A DNA stretch of 64,000 nucleotides from Planctomycetaceae bacterium (GTDB taxonomy: Bacteria > Planctomycetota > Planctomycetia > Pirellulales > Pirellulaceae), in assembly GCA_007694185.1 (NCBI GenBank), contig RECD01000135.1, positions 1-64,000 on the forward strand, given 5' to 3'. The notes under the pieces were generated by a model, which had not been told where the DNA came from, did no database searches, and worked only from the letters and a program-made list of their open reading frames with translations. How positions within the stretch are numbered: position 1 is the first letter of the stretch; each line of letters starts with the position of its first letter. Below are positions 25,134 to 57,721 of the stretch, piece by piece. Both the position numbers and the translations under genes were made by a program.

Positions 25134-25514
25134 ATGTTGAAATTCTTGATCCCCTGCTTCGTCGCCCTCTACGCGGTGTCACCCGCCTTCTCGTTCGACG
25201 GTCCCTCGATCAACGCGGCAGACCGATTGTCGGAGGTGACCGCGACCCCTGATTCCTTGATTCTGGCCGAACAACCAGAAGACGCGATCGATCACGCCGT
25301 CTCGGGCGAAGCGGATTGGCCCGCCGCAGTCATCTTCTCCACGACCGCCGACGCACCGCACGCGATCCACCCCGTCACCCAACCGACGCAGACGGCCCGT
25401 CCGGCGCGATCGGTTTCGAACTCCCAACGAAACTCCGGGGGAGTTTTCAGCAACATGATGGAACTGGAGCGACGAAAGAACACTTGGTTGAAGCGTACGT
25501 TCCTCGGTCGATAG
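25134..25514 (+). CDS. Small secreted protein with basic C-terminal motif, unknown function
   Basis: 126 residues from the ATG at 25134, chosen because it begins a clear signal peptide (MLKFLIPCFVALYAVSPAFS) with GGAG about 10 nt upstream. The mature middle is acidic then Thr/Pro-rich, low in complexity and probably disordered. The end is a compact charged segment, MMELERRKNTWLKRTFLGR, the only part with helix-like character. I do not recognise a family. The conserved-looking tail and signal peptide argue that it is real and exported. It lies alone between a promoter region and a structured non-coding block. Confidence 0.7.
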   Translation: MLKFLIPCFVALYAVSPAFSFDGPSINAADRLSEVTATPDSLILAEQPEDAIDHAVSGEADWPAAVIFSTTADAPHAIHPVTQPTQTARPARSVSNSQRNSGGVFSNMMELERRKNTWLKRTFLGR

Positions 25515-25516
25515 GA

Positions 25517-25710
25517 CAGGCATTCCGCCTGCCGGACCGCCGTTCCTGGGTGCATCCCATCTTGAGCCATCGATCCCACCCCCAGGAACCGGCGAATCGC
25601 AGGGCTTGAGACCGTCACTCGGCCCGCTCCTGCTCTTCACCCGTGAAGGGCAATCGACGTTCTCAAGCCCGGGTGCGGGGATTAGGTTGGCCCCGCGCCG
25701 ACCTACCCGG
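25517..25710 (+). ncRNA. Candidate structured RNA or leader: run of five helices
   Basis: Non-coding block between the small secreted protein and the metallophosphoesterase gene. Stems seen: CAGGC/GCCTG (25517-25521, 25527-25531); GTTCCTGGG/CCCAGGAAC (25542-25550, 25581-25589); GGGCTTGAGA/TCTCAAGCCC (25602-25611, 25661-25670), which encloses TGCTCTTCA/TGAAGGGCA with a CCCG tetraloop (25631-25639, 25644-25652, one G-U); and TAGGTTGGC/GCCGACCTA with a 5 nt loop (25683-25691, 25697-25705, one G-U). The last competes with GGTGCGGGG/CCCCGCGCC (25672-25680, 25691-25699). Mutually exclusive stems upstream of a gene suggest a cis-regulatory leader, but orientation and expression are inferred. The rest of the spacer to 25860 holds one short hairpin (25772-25784) and nothing else I can name. 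Confidence 0.35.
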
Positions 25711-25860
25711 ATACCGGCCGGGATTCATTTGGCCAGGCGTCTGCAAACCTTCATCCCTTCCACACGCTTTCCGAAGCTGCTTCGATTATGGTTGGGTGGT
25801 CAGGGGGCAAGCCGTTGATCGCCTCCCGCTTACCAAGCCTGTTATCGAAAGTCCGACCCC

Positions 25861-27582
25861 ATGAAACGTTTCGCTCCCGCCACGATATCGATCGTGTTGA
25901 CGATCCTCCTGCTCCCACAAGCGATCGGTCATGAGGGCCATGGCCCTCACAAGCACCCGCCACGCCGTCCACCCCTCGACGGTCAGCCAAATGGGCTCGC
26001 CCCGGCGGCACCCGCGACGAAGATCGCGACCGCATTGGCGACCACGCAAGCCGGCGAAACGGCCCAAGCGGCGACGGACGAACCGCAACTGGCCCGCGGG
26101 TTCGTCTTCGAAGACACGAACGGCAATGGGCGACGCGACGAAGGTGAACCCGGCCTGCCGGGGATGCGGGTCAGCAACGGTCGCGACATCGTACGGACGG
26201 ATGCCGATGGCGCTTACCAGATCGCCGTGGACGACGACACGATCGTCTTCGTCATCAAGCCCAGGGACTTCATGACCCCGGTCGACGAGCAGCAATTGCC
26301 GCGGTTTTACTACATCCACAAGCCTGCCGGTTCGCCACCCGACTTCAAGTTTGCCGGTGTCGCCCCAACCGGCCCGTTGCCCGAGTCGATCGACTTTCCG
26401 CTCGTGCGTCGTCCCGAACCGGACCGATTTCGTGCGTTGATCTTCGGCGACACCCAGTCTCGGAACGTGACAGAGGTCGCATACATGGCGCACGACGTGA
26501 TCGAACAGGTGATCGCCGAAGGGGCTCATGACGCCGCTTTCGGCGTGACCTTGGGGGACATCGTGTTCGACGACCTGGATGTGATGGAACCGCACAACCA
26601 GGCGATCGCGATGATCGGTATCCCCTGGTACAACGTCATCGGCAATCATGATTTGAATTTCGACGCCGCCGACGACCGGCATAGCGACGAAACGTTCGAA
26701 CGGGTCTACGGACCGGCCTACTATTCTTTCGACCACGGGCCGACTCACTTCATGGTGCTGGACGACGTCACCTGGGTCGGGCCGACCGATGGGCGTCCGG
26801 GGCGTTATTTCGGCGGCTTGGGTGAACGCCAGATGGAGTTCATTCGGAACGACCTGGCGCTGCTACCGCCGGATCAACTGGTCGTGTTGATGATGCACAT
26901 CCCGCTGACCGATGTGCAGGACCGTCAGGAACTGTATCGCTTGATCGAACAGCGCCCTGCGACGGTCTCGCTGTCGGCCCACACCCACTACATGGAACAC
27001 CGCTTCATCGGCGAAGAGGACGATTGGAAGGGCCCCGAACGGCATCACCACGTGATCAACGTCACCGTCTGCGGCAGTTGGTGGCGCGGTCGCAAGGACG
27101 AGCGAGGCATCCCGCACGCGACAATGAGCGACGGCGGTCCGAACGGGTACTCGATCATGGAGTTCGACGGGTCGCAGTACTCGCTGGAATTCCGTGCTGC
27201 CAGCCGACCCGCTGACTACCAAATGAACATCTACGCTCCCGAATCGATCTCTCGGGCGGAATCCGTGACGACGGTCGTGATGGCGAACGTCTTTGCCGGC
27301 TCCGAAAAAACTCAGGTCGAAATGCGACTCGGCGAGGATTCCCCATGGTCTCCCATGGAACCGACCCGAATCGCCGATCCGGCGTTTGTGGCCGAAGTGG
27401 CCCGTGAATTGGCACTCGAAAATCGGAACTGGACGGAACTGCCCAAACCTCACCCGACGCCGCACATCTGGCGCGGCATGCTGCCCGCGGCGACGAAGGT
27501 CGGCACCCAGCTGATCGAGATCCGCGCCACGAACCCGAACGGCCAGGTGCATCTCGGCCGCAGGCTGATCCGCATCGAGTGA
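25861..27582 (+). CDS. Secreted calcineurin-like metallophosphoesterase with N-terminal Ig-like and C-terminal beta domains
   Basis: 573 residues. A signal peptide (to LLLPQAIG) is followed by a His-rich stretch (HEGHGPHKH) that could bind metal. Residues about 80-140 form an SdrD-B/MetallophosN-type domain (RGFVFEDTNGNGRRDEGEPG, then VRTDADGAYQI). The phosphoesterase core follows: LIFGDTQSR, TLGDIVFDD, NVIGNHDLNFD, LMMHIPL and LSAHTHYMEHRF, giving the full set of metal ligands. The C-terminal ~150 residues are a MetallophosC-like beta domain. The substrate is probably an extracellular phosphoester. Its 5' region contains the structured block described separately. Confidence 0.93.
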   Translation: MKRFAPATISIVLTILLLPQAIGHEGHGPHKHPPRRPPLDGQPNGLAPAAPATKIATALATTQAGETAQAATDEPQLARGFVFEDTNGNGRRDEGEPGLPGMRVSNGRDIVRTDADGAYQIAVDDDTIVFVIKPRDFMTPVDEQQLPRFYYIHKPAGSPPDFKFAGVAPTGPLPESIDFPLVRRPEPDRFRALIFGDTQSRNVTEVAYMAHDVIEQVIAEGAHDAAFGVTLGDIVFDDLDVMEPHNQAIAMIGIPWYNVIGNHDLNFDAADDRHSDETFERVYGPAYYSFDHGPTHFMVLDDVTWVGPTDGRPGRYFGGLGERQMEFIRNDLALLPPDQLVVLMMHIPLTDVQDRQELYRLIEQRPATVSLSAHTHYMEHRFIGEEDDWKGPERHHHVINVTVCGSWWRGRKDERGIPHATMSDGGPNGYSIMEFDGSQYSLEFRAASRPADYQMNIYAPESISRAESVTTVVMANVFAGSEKTQVEMRLGEDSPWSPMEPTRIADPAFVAEVARELALENRNWTELPKPHPTPHIWRGMLPAATKVGTQLIEIRATNPNGQVHLGRRLIRIE

Positions 27583-27637
27583 ACGGGCAGCACGGACCTT
27601 TGTTGGCTCGCTCCCTCGGGAGCGCAGCGGACTCATC

Positions 27638-27671
27638 GGTCAGGCTACCGGGCCCCCGCCCGGGCCTGACC
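27638..27671. terminator. 14 bp hairpin between convergent genes
   Basis: GGTCAGGC (27638-27645) pairs with GCCTGACC (27664-27671) and CCGGGC (27648-27653) with GCCCGG (27658-27663), around a CCCC loop and a 2 nt TA bulge. The bulge holds most of the stop codon of the minus-strand hydrolase. A second 6 bp stem with a CTCG loop is at 27609-27624. There is no T-run, so termination by this structure is an inference from its strength and convergent position. Confidence 0.55.
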
Positions 27672-28490
27672 GATCACGAACTCGACCAGCGGAACGCTGC
27701 GGAAGAACCCTTCCCAAAAGTTGTGCCCTTGGCCCTGGACCACGATCAGTTCCACCCGATCGTCTTTGCCGAGGGCCCGATAGCGTTCCGCCAGGGCGGC
27801 CGAATTCTCTGCCAGCGGCACCACGGTATCCTGATCGCCATGGATGATGCAAATCGGGATCGCTGCCCGGGCCAATCCGTCGATCCGAGCGATCGGGTTG
27901 TGAATGGCCAAGGAAGCTTCTAATTCGGCAGGGCTCATTCCGTAAGCGGGTGCCGCTTTTTCTAAGCCGGGATACGTCCGCAGGTCAAAGACAGGATAGA
28001 TGCCGGCAATCCCCGCGACCCGATCGGGATGGGCGATCGCCCAACTGCTGACCCACAAACCGCCGCGGCTACGCCCCAGCAAGCAGGGTTTCTCCGCGAA
28101 CCCGCGTCGGTGTACCAGCTCGTCATGCAGGGCTGTCATCAACTCCTGCCCAGGCGGGCTGCCGTAGGCTTCCCCCGCGTCGATCCCGGCAACGGCGATC
28201 CCGGCAGCCAGGAACCGCTCGTGCATCCAAGCCTCGTGCTGATCGGGATACGCCGGCAAGGTCGGGGCATACATCACCCAAGGTTGAGGCGTTTGACGCA
28301 ATTCGTCGGACGGCAATAAAACGAACCCGGGCCTCCCGGCGATTTCGAGGGACTCGCCCGGCAGTTCCAGGTGCCGAAGCGGGCCGGAACGACCGGTTTC
28401 CTGTGTCGAGCCTGACAACGGCCCGCAGAGCAACCCGACGATCGCCATCGAACACGCGGCGACAAGCTTGCCCAAGCGATGCGTTGACAT
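27645..28490 (-). CDS. Secreted alpha/beta-hydrolase (prolyl-oligopeptidase/esterase type)
   Basis: 281 residues from MSTHRLGK; an ATG 12 nt upstream is also possible. The signal sequence runs to about LLCGPLSGSTQ. The catalytic triad is readable: nucleophile in LLGRSRGGLWVSS, Asp in CIIHGDQDTVVPL and His in VQGQGHNFWEGFF. The substrate is not evident; such small secreted hydrolases are often esterases. It is convergent with the metallophosphoesterase gene and about 30 bp downstream of the STAS gene, which reads in the same direction. Confidence 0.85.
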   Translation of the reverse strand: MSTHRLGKLVAACSMAIVGLLCGPLSGSTQETGRSGPLRHLELPGESLEIAGRPGFVLLPSDELRQTPQPWVMYAPTLPAYPDQHEAWMHERFLAAGIAVAGIDAGEAYGSPPGQELMTALHDELVHRRGFAEKPCLLGRSRGGLWVSSWAIAHPDRVAGIAGIYPVFDLRTYPGLEKAAPAYGMSPAELEASLAIHNPIARIDGLARAAIPICIIHGDQDTVVPLAENSAALAERYRALGKDDRVELIVVQGQGHNFWEGFFRSVPLVEFVIGQARAGAR

Positions 28491-41646: not shown

Positions 41647-42486
41647 TTGATGTTGCTGTCTTGCGTTCAAACCGACGTCACCTTTGCCGATTGCCCGGCA
41701 AACCTCGCGCGAGTGACCCACTGGACCGACCTCGCCGCCGCCTCAGGTGCCGATCTCGTCGTATTTCCCGAGTGCATGCTGAGCGGCTACGGCTATGACA
41801 GTCGTGAGGAGGCAGAGGGACAGGGATTGACGACCGACGACCCGGTCTTTGACGAATTGTCAGCGGCCTGTCGTCGCGCCAAACCGCTGCATCTGGTGAT
41901 CGGCTTTTTGGAGTCGGAGACCACGGCGTCAGGCGATCGCAAACTCTACAACGCCGCAGCGATCATCGGCCCCAACGGCCTCGTCGGGCTGTACCGCAAA
42001 GTCCACTTGCCACACTTGGGCGTGGATCGATTCGTCGATCCGGGCGAGCAAGCCTATGCCGTGCATGCGGTCGGCGAAGCGAGGGTCGGACTGGGCATCT
42101 GCTATGACTGCTCGTTCCCGGAACCGATGCGTGTGCTGGGGCTGGCGGGTGCGGACATCATCGCCTTGCCGACCAATTGGCCGTTGGCGGCCCAGCGGAC
42201 CGCTCGCTTCGTGCCGGCGGTCCGCAGCATGGAAAACCATCTCTATTTTGCGGCCGCCAACCGCATCGGCGATGAGCGAGGGTTCACTTACTGCGGCCTG
42301 AGCAGTCTGCACGGACCGGACGGGGTCGAGTTAGCCATGGCAGCGGGGGCCGAGGAGACCCTGTTGATCTCGCCGATCGATCTGGCCACCGCCCGCAACA
42401 AGCGGATCGAACGAACCCCCGGAAAGCACGTGATCGATCGGTTCGCCGATCGTCGCCCCGCGTTTTATACCGGTCTCAACGGCTAG
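41647..42486 (+). CDS. Carbon-nitrogen hydrolase (nitrilase superfamily)
   Basis: 279 residues with an intact Glu-Lys-Cys triad: Glu41 in [13 protein letters not shown], Lys118 in [12 protein letters not shown] and Cys155 in [12 protein letters not shown]. The family includes amidases, beta-ureidopropionase, N-carbamoylputrescine amidase and omega-amidase; the sequence does not settle the substrate. It is a single plus-strand gene, divergent from sthA and convergent with the barrel protein gene. Confidence 0.9.
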
Positions 42487-56787: not shown

Positions 56788-56863
56788 GCGATCGCCCGCT
56801 TTAACCGGCTGCGATCACGGCTTTGAACCTTGACCCAGAGCACCGGAATGGGGTTTTGACAGG

Positions 56864-57721
56864 TTACTCGTCAGTCGCCCCGTCGTTCTGCTCTGCCTTC
56901 GCCTCTGCGTACAATTGCCGGATCAGCTCCGGGTCTTCAGATGGATCTGGCAATTGAGGATCCATCTCGCGAAGGGTCTCGAGCAGAATCCCGGCCACGG
57001 CCGCGTTGCGATGCCATTTGCGGTCGGCCGGGATCACATACCAGGGGGCTTCGTCCGAGGAGCAGCGGCTGAACGCCTCCAAATAGGCTTCCTGGTATGC
57101 CCCCCATTGCTTGCGGGCGGAGTAATCCGACTTGGCGAGCTTCCAGTGCTTTTCCGGCTCCTTCAATCTCTCGCCGAACCGCTTCAACTGCTCGCGAGGC
57201 GAAATGTGCAAATAGAACTTGATAATCCGCGTCCCCCGGTCGCGCAGCAACGACTCGAACGCATTGATGTGCTCGTATCGTTTTTGCCAAACCGGTTCAG
57301 GGACCAGCCCCTCGACCCGCACCACCAAGACGTCTTCATAATGTGAACGGTTGAAGATGCTGACCATCCCTGCGGCCGGAGTGCAGGCATGGATTCGCCA
57401 CAAGAAATCGTGAGCCGCCTCGATCGTGCTGGGAACCTTAAAGGGATAAGTTCGGCACCCCTGCGGATTCATCCGCCCCAAAACGTGTCGGATCACACCG
57501 TCTTTCCCAGCGGCATCGGGTGCCTGCAGGACGATCAGGAGCGACTGCTTGCCCTCGGTGAAGAGCTTGTACTGAAGATGCTGAATCTCCTCGACCGCCG
57601 CTCGAGTGAACGGCTCCGCTTCGCCACGATTCGCGAACGGCCCTTTGTCCCGTGTCGAGAGTTGATCGAGCCCCTTGTGGAGTTCTTTGCGAAATTGATA
57701 ACGTGCTCGGAAATCGGTCAT
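56864..57721 (-). CDS. Polyphosphate kinase 2 family protein
   Basis: 285 residues, single PPK2 domain. Walker A is LQAPDAAGKDGVIRHV near residue 70, Walker B the FNRSHYEDVLVVRVE segment, and the lid carries FGERLKEPEKHWK. The N-terminal extension and length resemble the nucleotide-phosphotransferase (class III-like) branch, which phosphorylates AMP or ADP using polyphosphate. The substrate class is inferred, not proven. It starts about 65 bp downstream of the amidohydrolase gene stop, same strand. Confidence 0.92.
   Translation of the reverse strand: MTDFRARYQFRKELHKGLDQLSTRDKGPFANRGEAEPFTRAAVEEIQHLQYKLFTEGKQSLLIVLQAPDAAGKDGVIRHVLGRMNPQGCRTYPFKVPSTIEAAHDFLWRIHACTPAAGMVSIFNRSHYEDVLVVRVEGLVPEPVWQKRYEHINAFESLLRDRGTRIIKFYLHISPREQLKRFGERLKEPEKHWKLAKSDYSARKQWGAYQEAYLEAFSRCSSDEAPWYVIPADRKWHRNAAVAGILLETLREMDPQLPDPSEDPELIRQLYAEAKAEQNDGATDE

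Follow-up and report, generated by a model that had tools for sequence, protein, structure and literature searches.

A hairpin cluster without a U-tract as the probable 3' end of a small secreted-protein gene in a planctomycete

To which gene does a dense cluster of predicted hairpins belong when it lies between a small secreted-protein gene and a metallophosphoesterase (MPE) gene on the same strand, and what does it do there? This question is raised by a locus in the window analysed here, a stretch of 64,000 nucleotides representing one contig (RECD01000135.1) of a 5.78-Mb Planctomycetaceae genome. The preliminary description had proposed an undescribed structured RNA or a leader of the MPE gene. 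Our analysis indicates that the cluster is probably the transcribed 3' end of the small gene, consisting of a 3' UTR with a terminator-type structure. The features of the locus are collected in Table 1.

Table 1. Hairpins of the cluster and neighbouring features in the window.
Feature	Position	Strand	Description
P1	25517..25531	+	Directly 3' of the stop codon; 4-5 bp, core AGGC/GCCT
P2	25538..25594	+	Stem of 5+8 bp, loop of about 30 nt
Hairpin A	25598..25677	+	From the base: helix of 4 bp, bulge of 3 nt in the 3' strand, main 10-bp stem, C.U mismatch, a second 4-bp helix, and a 9-bp hairpin at the tip
Hairpin B	25678..25708	+	Abuts A; 3 bp, 2-nt bulge (AT), 9 bp, 5-nt loop
MPE-proximal stretch	25711..25860	+	Upstream of the MPE start; no more structured than shuffles
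Small secreted-protein gene	25134..25514	+	126 aa; N-terminus signal-like on visual inspection; motif conserved at the C-terminus
Metallophosphoesterase gene	25861..27582	+	MetallophosN/C domains; absent from the orthologous G003 gap

All the stems listed in the preliminary description can be located exactly, and the cluster lies, as described, just after the small secreted-protein ORF, which ends at 25514. Perfect pairing is observed in P2, between 25542-25550 and 25581-25589 (GTTCCTGGG/CCCAGGAAC), and in the 10-bp main stem of hairpin A, between 25602-25611 and 25661-25670 (GGGCTTGAGA/TCTCAAGCCC), the latter being extendable to 15 nt with one mismatch. This 10-bp stem encloses a 9-bp hairpin with one G-U pair and a CCCG tetraloop (25631-25639/25644-25652), and hairpin B contains a further 9-bp stem, again with one G-U pair (25683-25691/25697-25705). 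The stem of P1 begins 3-4 nt past the stop codon, and the hairpins follow one another at distances of 7 nt (P1-P2), 3 nt (P2-A), and 0 nt (A-B).

The predicted fold of 25517-25710 is stronger than that of shuffled sequences, with z=-4.08 on the plus strand and z=-2.69 on the minus strand (200 shuffles). The background consists of 329 non-overlapping 194-nt windows per strand with 16 shuffles each; two of these windows overlap the cluster. A z at or below that of the cluster is reached by 2/329 background windows on the plus strand and 10/329 on the minus strand; ranked by energy gain over shuffles, 0 and 6 of the 329 per strand, respectively, lie at or below it. The longer segment 25515-25860, for which folding on both strands had been recommended, yields z=-2.64 (+) and z=-1.55 (-) against shuffles. 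The assertion that stems are much denser here than elsewhere proved overstated: the window holds 26 perfect stems of 9 bp or more (loops of at most 60 nt), and at about 42.1 and 56.9 kb, likewise, at least two of them occur within 195 nt. The two plus-strand background windows with z below that of the cluster are 42099-42292 and 56843-57036. The former falls inside an ORF (41647-42486) that we take to be nitrilase-like, and the stems at about 56.9 kb are situated at a convergent gene end and in the ORF beside it.

A same-genus genome, G003, carries the orthologous locus. The genes adh, omp, the small gene, abh, stas, and the next ORF (g29058) are collinear in the window and in G003. In G003, no MPE gene lies between the small gene and abh, which are convergent across the gap; its MPE gene is found on another contig. 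The G003 gap is more structured than that of the window (z=-4.65 on the plus strand, -3.18 on the minus strand), and in both species the structure is stronger on the plus strand. Among 87 loci searched, many of which extend only about 1.5 kb past the match and some of which are cut, 48 carry MPE, 22 carry abh, and none carries both, the five window loci being left out. Most simply, the MPE gene would be a newer neighbour in the lineage of the window; its loss at the G003 locus is a possible alternative.

Within the gap, a stem formed by GGGCTTGAG/CTCAAGCCC is common to the window and G003, located 87 nt past the small-gene stop in the former and 76 nt in the latter, with a diverged loop. Each arm of hairpin A is identical in the two species over 9 nt, and the remainder has diverged. 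In a MAFFT alignment made without structure, 14/14 pairs are kept in both rows, three pairs of A have both partners altered in a compensatory way, and the two species share the site of a mismatch (C.U and U.U). Pairing falls to 21-50% when the partner is slid by 1-3 columns; the shuffle control of stem counts is weak with two rows, 65 of 500 shuffles reaching the observed value. Across 147 genomes, our own included, the exact stem with a spacer of 28-56 nt occurs in the window, in G003, and at one site in G140 (L099) only. A covariance model made from the window and G003, which match it by construction, found no other strong match in 98 genomes under strict filters, with no more than 45 candidates scored in each genome, and three weak matches at E 0.02-0.05 (L102-L104). 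On the stem pattern and the covariance model in these genomes, we reject the stem as a family-wide element. The gap DNA itself has no match in the four other same-genus genomes at E up to 0.01 and, at the same threshold across 98 genomes, one 29-nt match besides itself, in G096. The cluster as such is carried by only two species.

That the cluster is a cis-regulatory leader or switch of the MPE gene seems highly improbable. Its position does agree with such a role, as it lies 150-340 nt upstream of the MPE ORF on the same strand. So does a competing stem proposed for 25672-25680/25691-25699, the arms of which exist and are 8/9 complementary, but nothing indicates switching. Against a leader stands G003, which carries the structured gap without the MPE gene, as do the 150 nt adjoining the MPE start, for which z=+1.12 and an equally strong or stronger fold is obtained with 182 of 200 shuffles. 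Homologous sequence upstream of MPE relatives, which a leader would lead one to expect, was found in none of 38 distinct regions (47 loci, five dropped as short, duplicates merged), either by blastn at E up to 0.05 or as the stem. MPE matches are present in 25 of 60 genomes, our own included (E up to 1e-60), and the genomes with relatives come from planctomycetes, including Planctomycetaceae, Rhodopirellula, and Rubripirellula. The 38 upstream regions are alike in 57 pairs, many of them outside this genus; those from the same genus resemble neither each other nor that of the window. Judged by sequence, the MPE neighbourhood is kept in other genera, but it differs from that of the window. Because the G003 gap is structured without an MPE gene and the 38 upstream regions are unmatched, the cluster is assigned to the 3' side of the small gene. 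It could instead comprise DNA-level palindromes with no RNA function, either left over from a small mobile element or forming an inverted repeat bound by a protein, which we consider improbable. The arms GGGCTTGAG/CTCAAGCCC are more conserved than the loop, and the MPE gene adjoins the cluster in the window and not in G003, both of which would suit such palindromes. However, unlike a repeat element, the stem is present as a single copy both in its own genome and in G003. In both species the plus-strand RNA is the more strongly structured, and G-U pairs, 7 of the 103 listed, would become A.C mismatches on the minus strand. Several copies per genome, as expected of a dispersed REP- or MITE-like repeat, were looked for and not found; searched against its own genome, the gap DNA gave, besides itself, only three matches, all of them short (20-40 nt, E 0.15-0.29). 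As a separate candidate for a dispersed repeat, the sequence CAGGCATTCCGCCTG was rejected, with one exact copy and five copies with two mismatches in the genome and 0 in the control.

A further alternative is a lineage-specific structured non-coding RNA composed of the three hairpins P2-A-B. Such an RNA would be derived from the small-gene 3' UTR or produced independently, and would do more than terminate transcription, for example by base-pairing or by binding a protein. We regard it as rather unlikely, though less so than the DNA-level palindromes. The layout of the three hairpins is alike in both species. P2 comprises 13 bp with a loop of 30 nt in the window and 11 bp with a loop of 28 nt in G003; A is built in both from an outer helix, a bulge of 2-3 nt in the 3' strand, 10 bp, a mismatch, and an inner helix; B abuts A with a 2-nt AT bulge in both. 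The tree-edit distance between the window and G003 is 62 with segment ends picked after seeing the folds, compared to means of 114 and 124 for flank-of-A shuffles (1/600 and 0/600 as close). A blind sub-window scan gives a native distance of 67, which 6/300 shuffles equal or undercut, while the other 24 family flanks lie at a distance of at least 93. The minus-strand folds differ more, with a distance of 100. As far as predicted folds of two species can tell, this layout hints at selection on the plus-strand RNA; the identity of the A arms despite divergence elsewhere also favours a non-coding RNA. Opposed to it are the restriction to two species, the post hoc segment ends behind the distance of 62, the covariance search described above, and a scan of 24.5-28.6 kb limited to sigma-70-type promoters, in which no promoter-like site was detected. 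Nor does the window contain an Rfam match at gathering score; at loose thresholds the best is nhaA-II on the minus strand (20.8 of 70.4 bits, E 0.8), which is unconvincing, and L062 has no match up to E 2. The characterization of the cluster as structured and possibly undescribed is nonetheless borne out, given the lack of an Rfam match at gathering score, energies that beat shuffles, and one stem kept with compensatory changes. A conserved P2-A-B RNA of about 170 nt might also be the 3' UTR of the small-gene mRNA itself, its layout kept while the sequence diverges, and serve as a module for termination without a U-tract or for RNA stability, or as a small RNA derived from the 3' UTR; to this we attach only a low likelihood.

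The assignment to the 3' end of the small gene, for which we infer transcription through the cluster and a role in termination or stability, finds a parallel in the relatives of this gene. A homologue of the small protein is present in 27 of 241 family genomes, our own included (loci L105-L130 and the window). The homologues share a strongly conserved C-terminal motif, which reads LMELERRKNAWLKRTFLGR in most of them, and searches of Pfam and NCBIfam gave no match for the 126-aa protein of the window. We compared 200-nt 3' flanks, with 26 small-gene flanks that include the window and G003 (L127 was dropped for its short flank). The mean z is -2.17 for the small gene (n=26), -1.21 for MPE (n=43), and -0.95 for abh (n=20). 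Small-gene flanks are thus more structured than MPE or abh flanks (p about 0.004 each), although these p values are optimistic, as the family flanks are related sequences. A scan for a hairpin plus T-run flags 12/26 small-gene, 11/43 MPE, and 3/20 abh flanks. Ten of the 12 flagged small-gene flanks were judged convincing (L110 and L116 were left out); all belong to genus g37, and their hairpin and T-run begin 57-122 nt past the small-gene stop. The flanks of the window and G003 are unflagged. The g37 cases, for example L113, L114, and L117, resemble the window in placing a hairpin after the stop codon of the homologous gene. They differ in having a single hairpin with a T-run and a different sequence, whereas the window has a cluster and no U-tract. 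The sequence 3' of the small gene is a different one in G001 and G004, and its hairpins differ as well. On the basis of the family flanks, strong structure tends to occur on the 3' side of the small gene, and in g37 it frequently resembles a classical terminator.

Like Rho-independent terminators, the cluster has GC-rich stem-loops downstream of a stop codon. There is no U-tract after A (GGGTGCGGGG) or B (GGATACCGGC), so the cluster falls outside the Rho-independent type in this respect, and none is present on the minus strand (TGCGATTCGC, CGCACCCGGG). A terminator scan of 24.5-28.6 kb listed neither A nor B; it returned 5 sites, compared to 3.0 (sd 1.4) in shuffles. We further surveyed the window and five stretches from four same-genus genomes for gene gaps between 60 and 600 nt long, delimited with a simple custom gene finder. 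Convergent gaps do not exceed the remaining ones in structure (12 against 44 gaps, p=0.65), which leaves a rule of hairpin-rich convergent gaps unsupported, and therefore strong hairpins are not the rule at gene ends here. The two most structured of the 56 gaps are the one discussed here (z=-2.96) and its G003 counterpart (z=-3.21). Both this survey and the three-hairpin layout, seemingly common to both species (n=2), argue against a purely generic terminator.

Known systems offer two comparisons. In the parts of their study considered here, Gupta and Pal (2021, PMC8355165) propose hairpin clusters as intrinsic terminators in 13 genomes, with poly-U not necessary. The cluster of the window resembles these units in having several short hairpins less than 15 nt apart, beginning within 80 nt of the stop codon and lacking poly-U. 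It differs from the units as presented there in that it consists of predicted folds and in that the main stem of A is conserved in sequence in a second species. Termination without a U-tract is disputed, since the reference list of the same article contains a title stating that mycobacterial RNA polymerase needs a U-tract. The excerpts of PMC1852404 and PMC5381666 describe bidirectional terminators between convergent genes and compensatory evolution of terminator stems. With these Rho-independent terminators the cluster shares the GC-rich hairpin after the stop, the convergent gene ends in G003, and the compensatory changes in A, as for those of Bacillus cereus; it differs in having no U-tract on either strand. 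A literature search combining planctomycetes with Rho-independent terminator and hairpin found no paper.

We postulate that P1, P2, A, and B would be transcribed one after another as RNA polymerase leaves the small gene. Once folded, the nascent RNA could promote release of the polymerase, block 3'-to-5' exonucleases, or both. As a result, a short one-gene mRNA would accumulate without read-through into the next gene, which is the convergent abh in G003 and MPE in the window. This moves the cluster from the leader of a downstream enzyme to the tail of an upstream small gene. It also provides a concrete, testable example of a planctomycete gene whose 3' end carries a strong hairpin cluster and no U-tract. 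Planctomycetes are a group outside the hairpin-cluster study, which, in the parts considered here, states that Planctomyces was excluded for want of good RNA-seq (PMC8355165).

Hairpins are also seen at the other end of the MPE gene. At 11 bp, the stem ATCGGTCAGGC (27635-27674) is the longest with perfect pairing detected in the window; it lies at the convergent ends of the MPE and abh genes and is perhaps their terminator. In two same-genus genomes (L040 and L058), a very similar hairpin, CAGGCACCCAATTT..GGGTGCCTG, is present 3' of the MPE gene.
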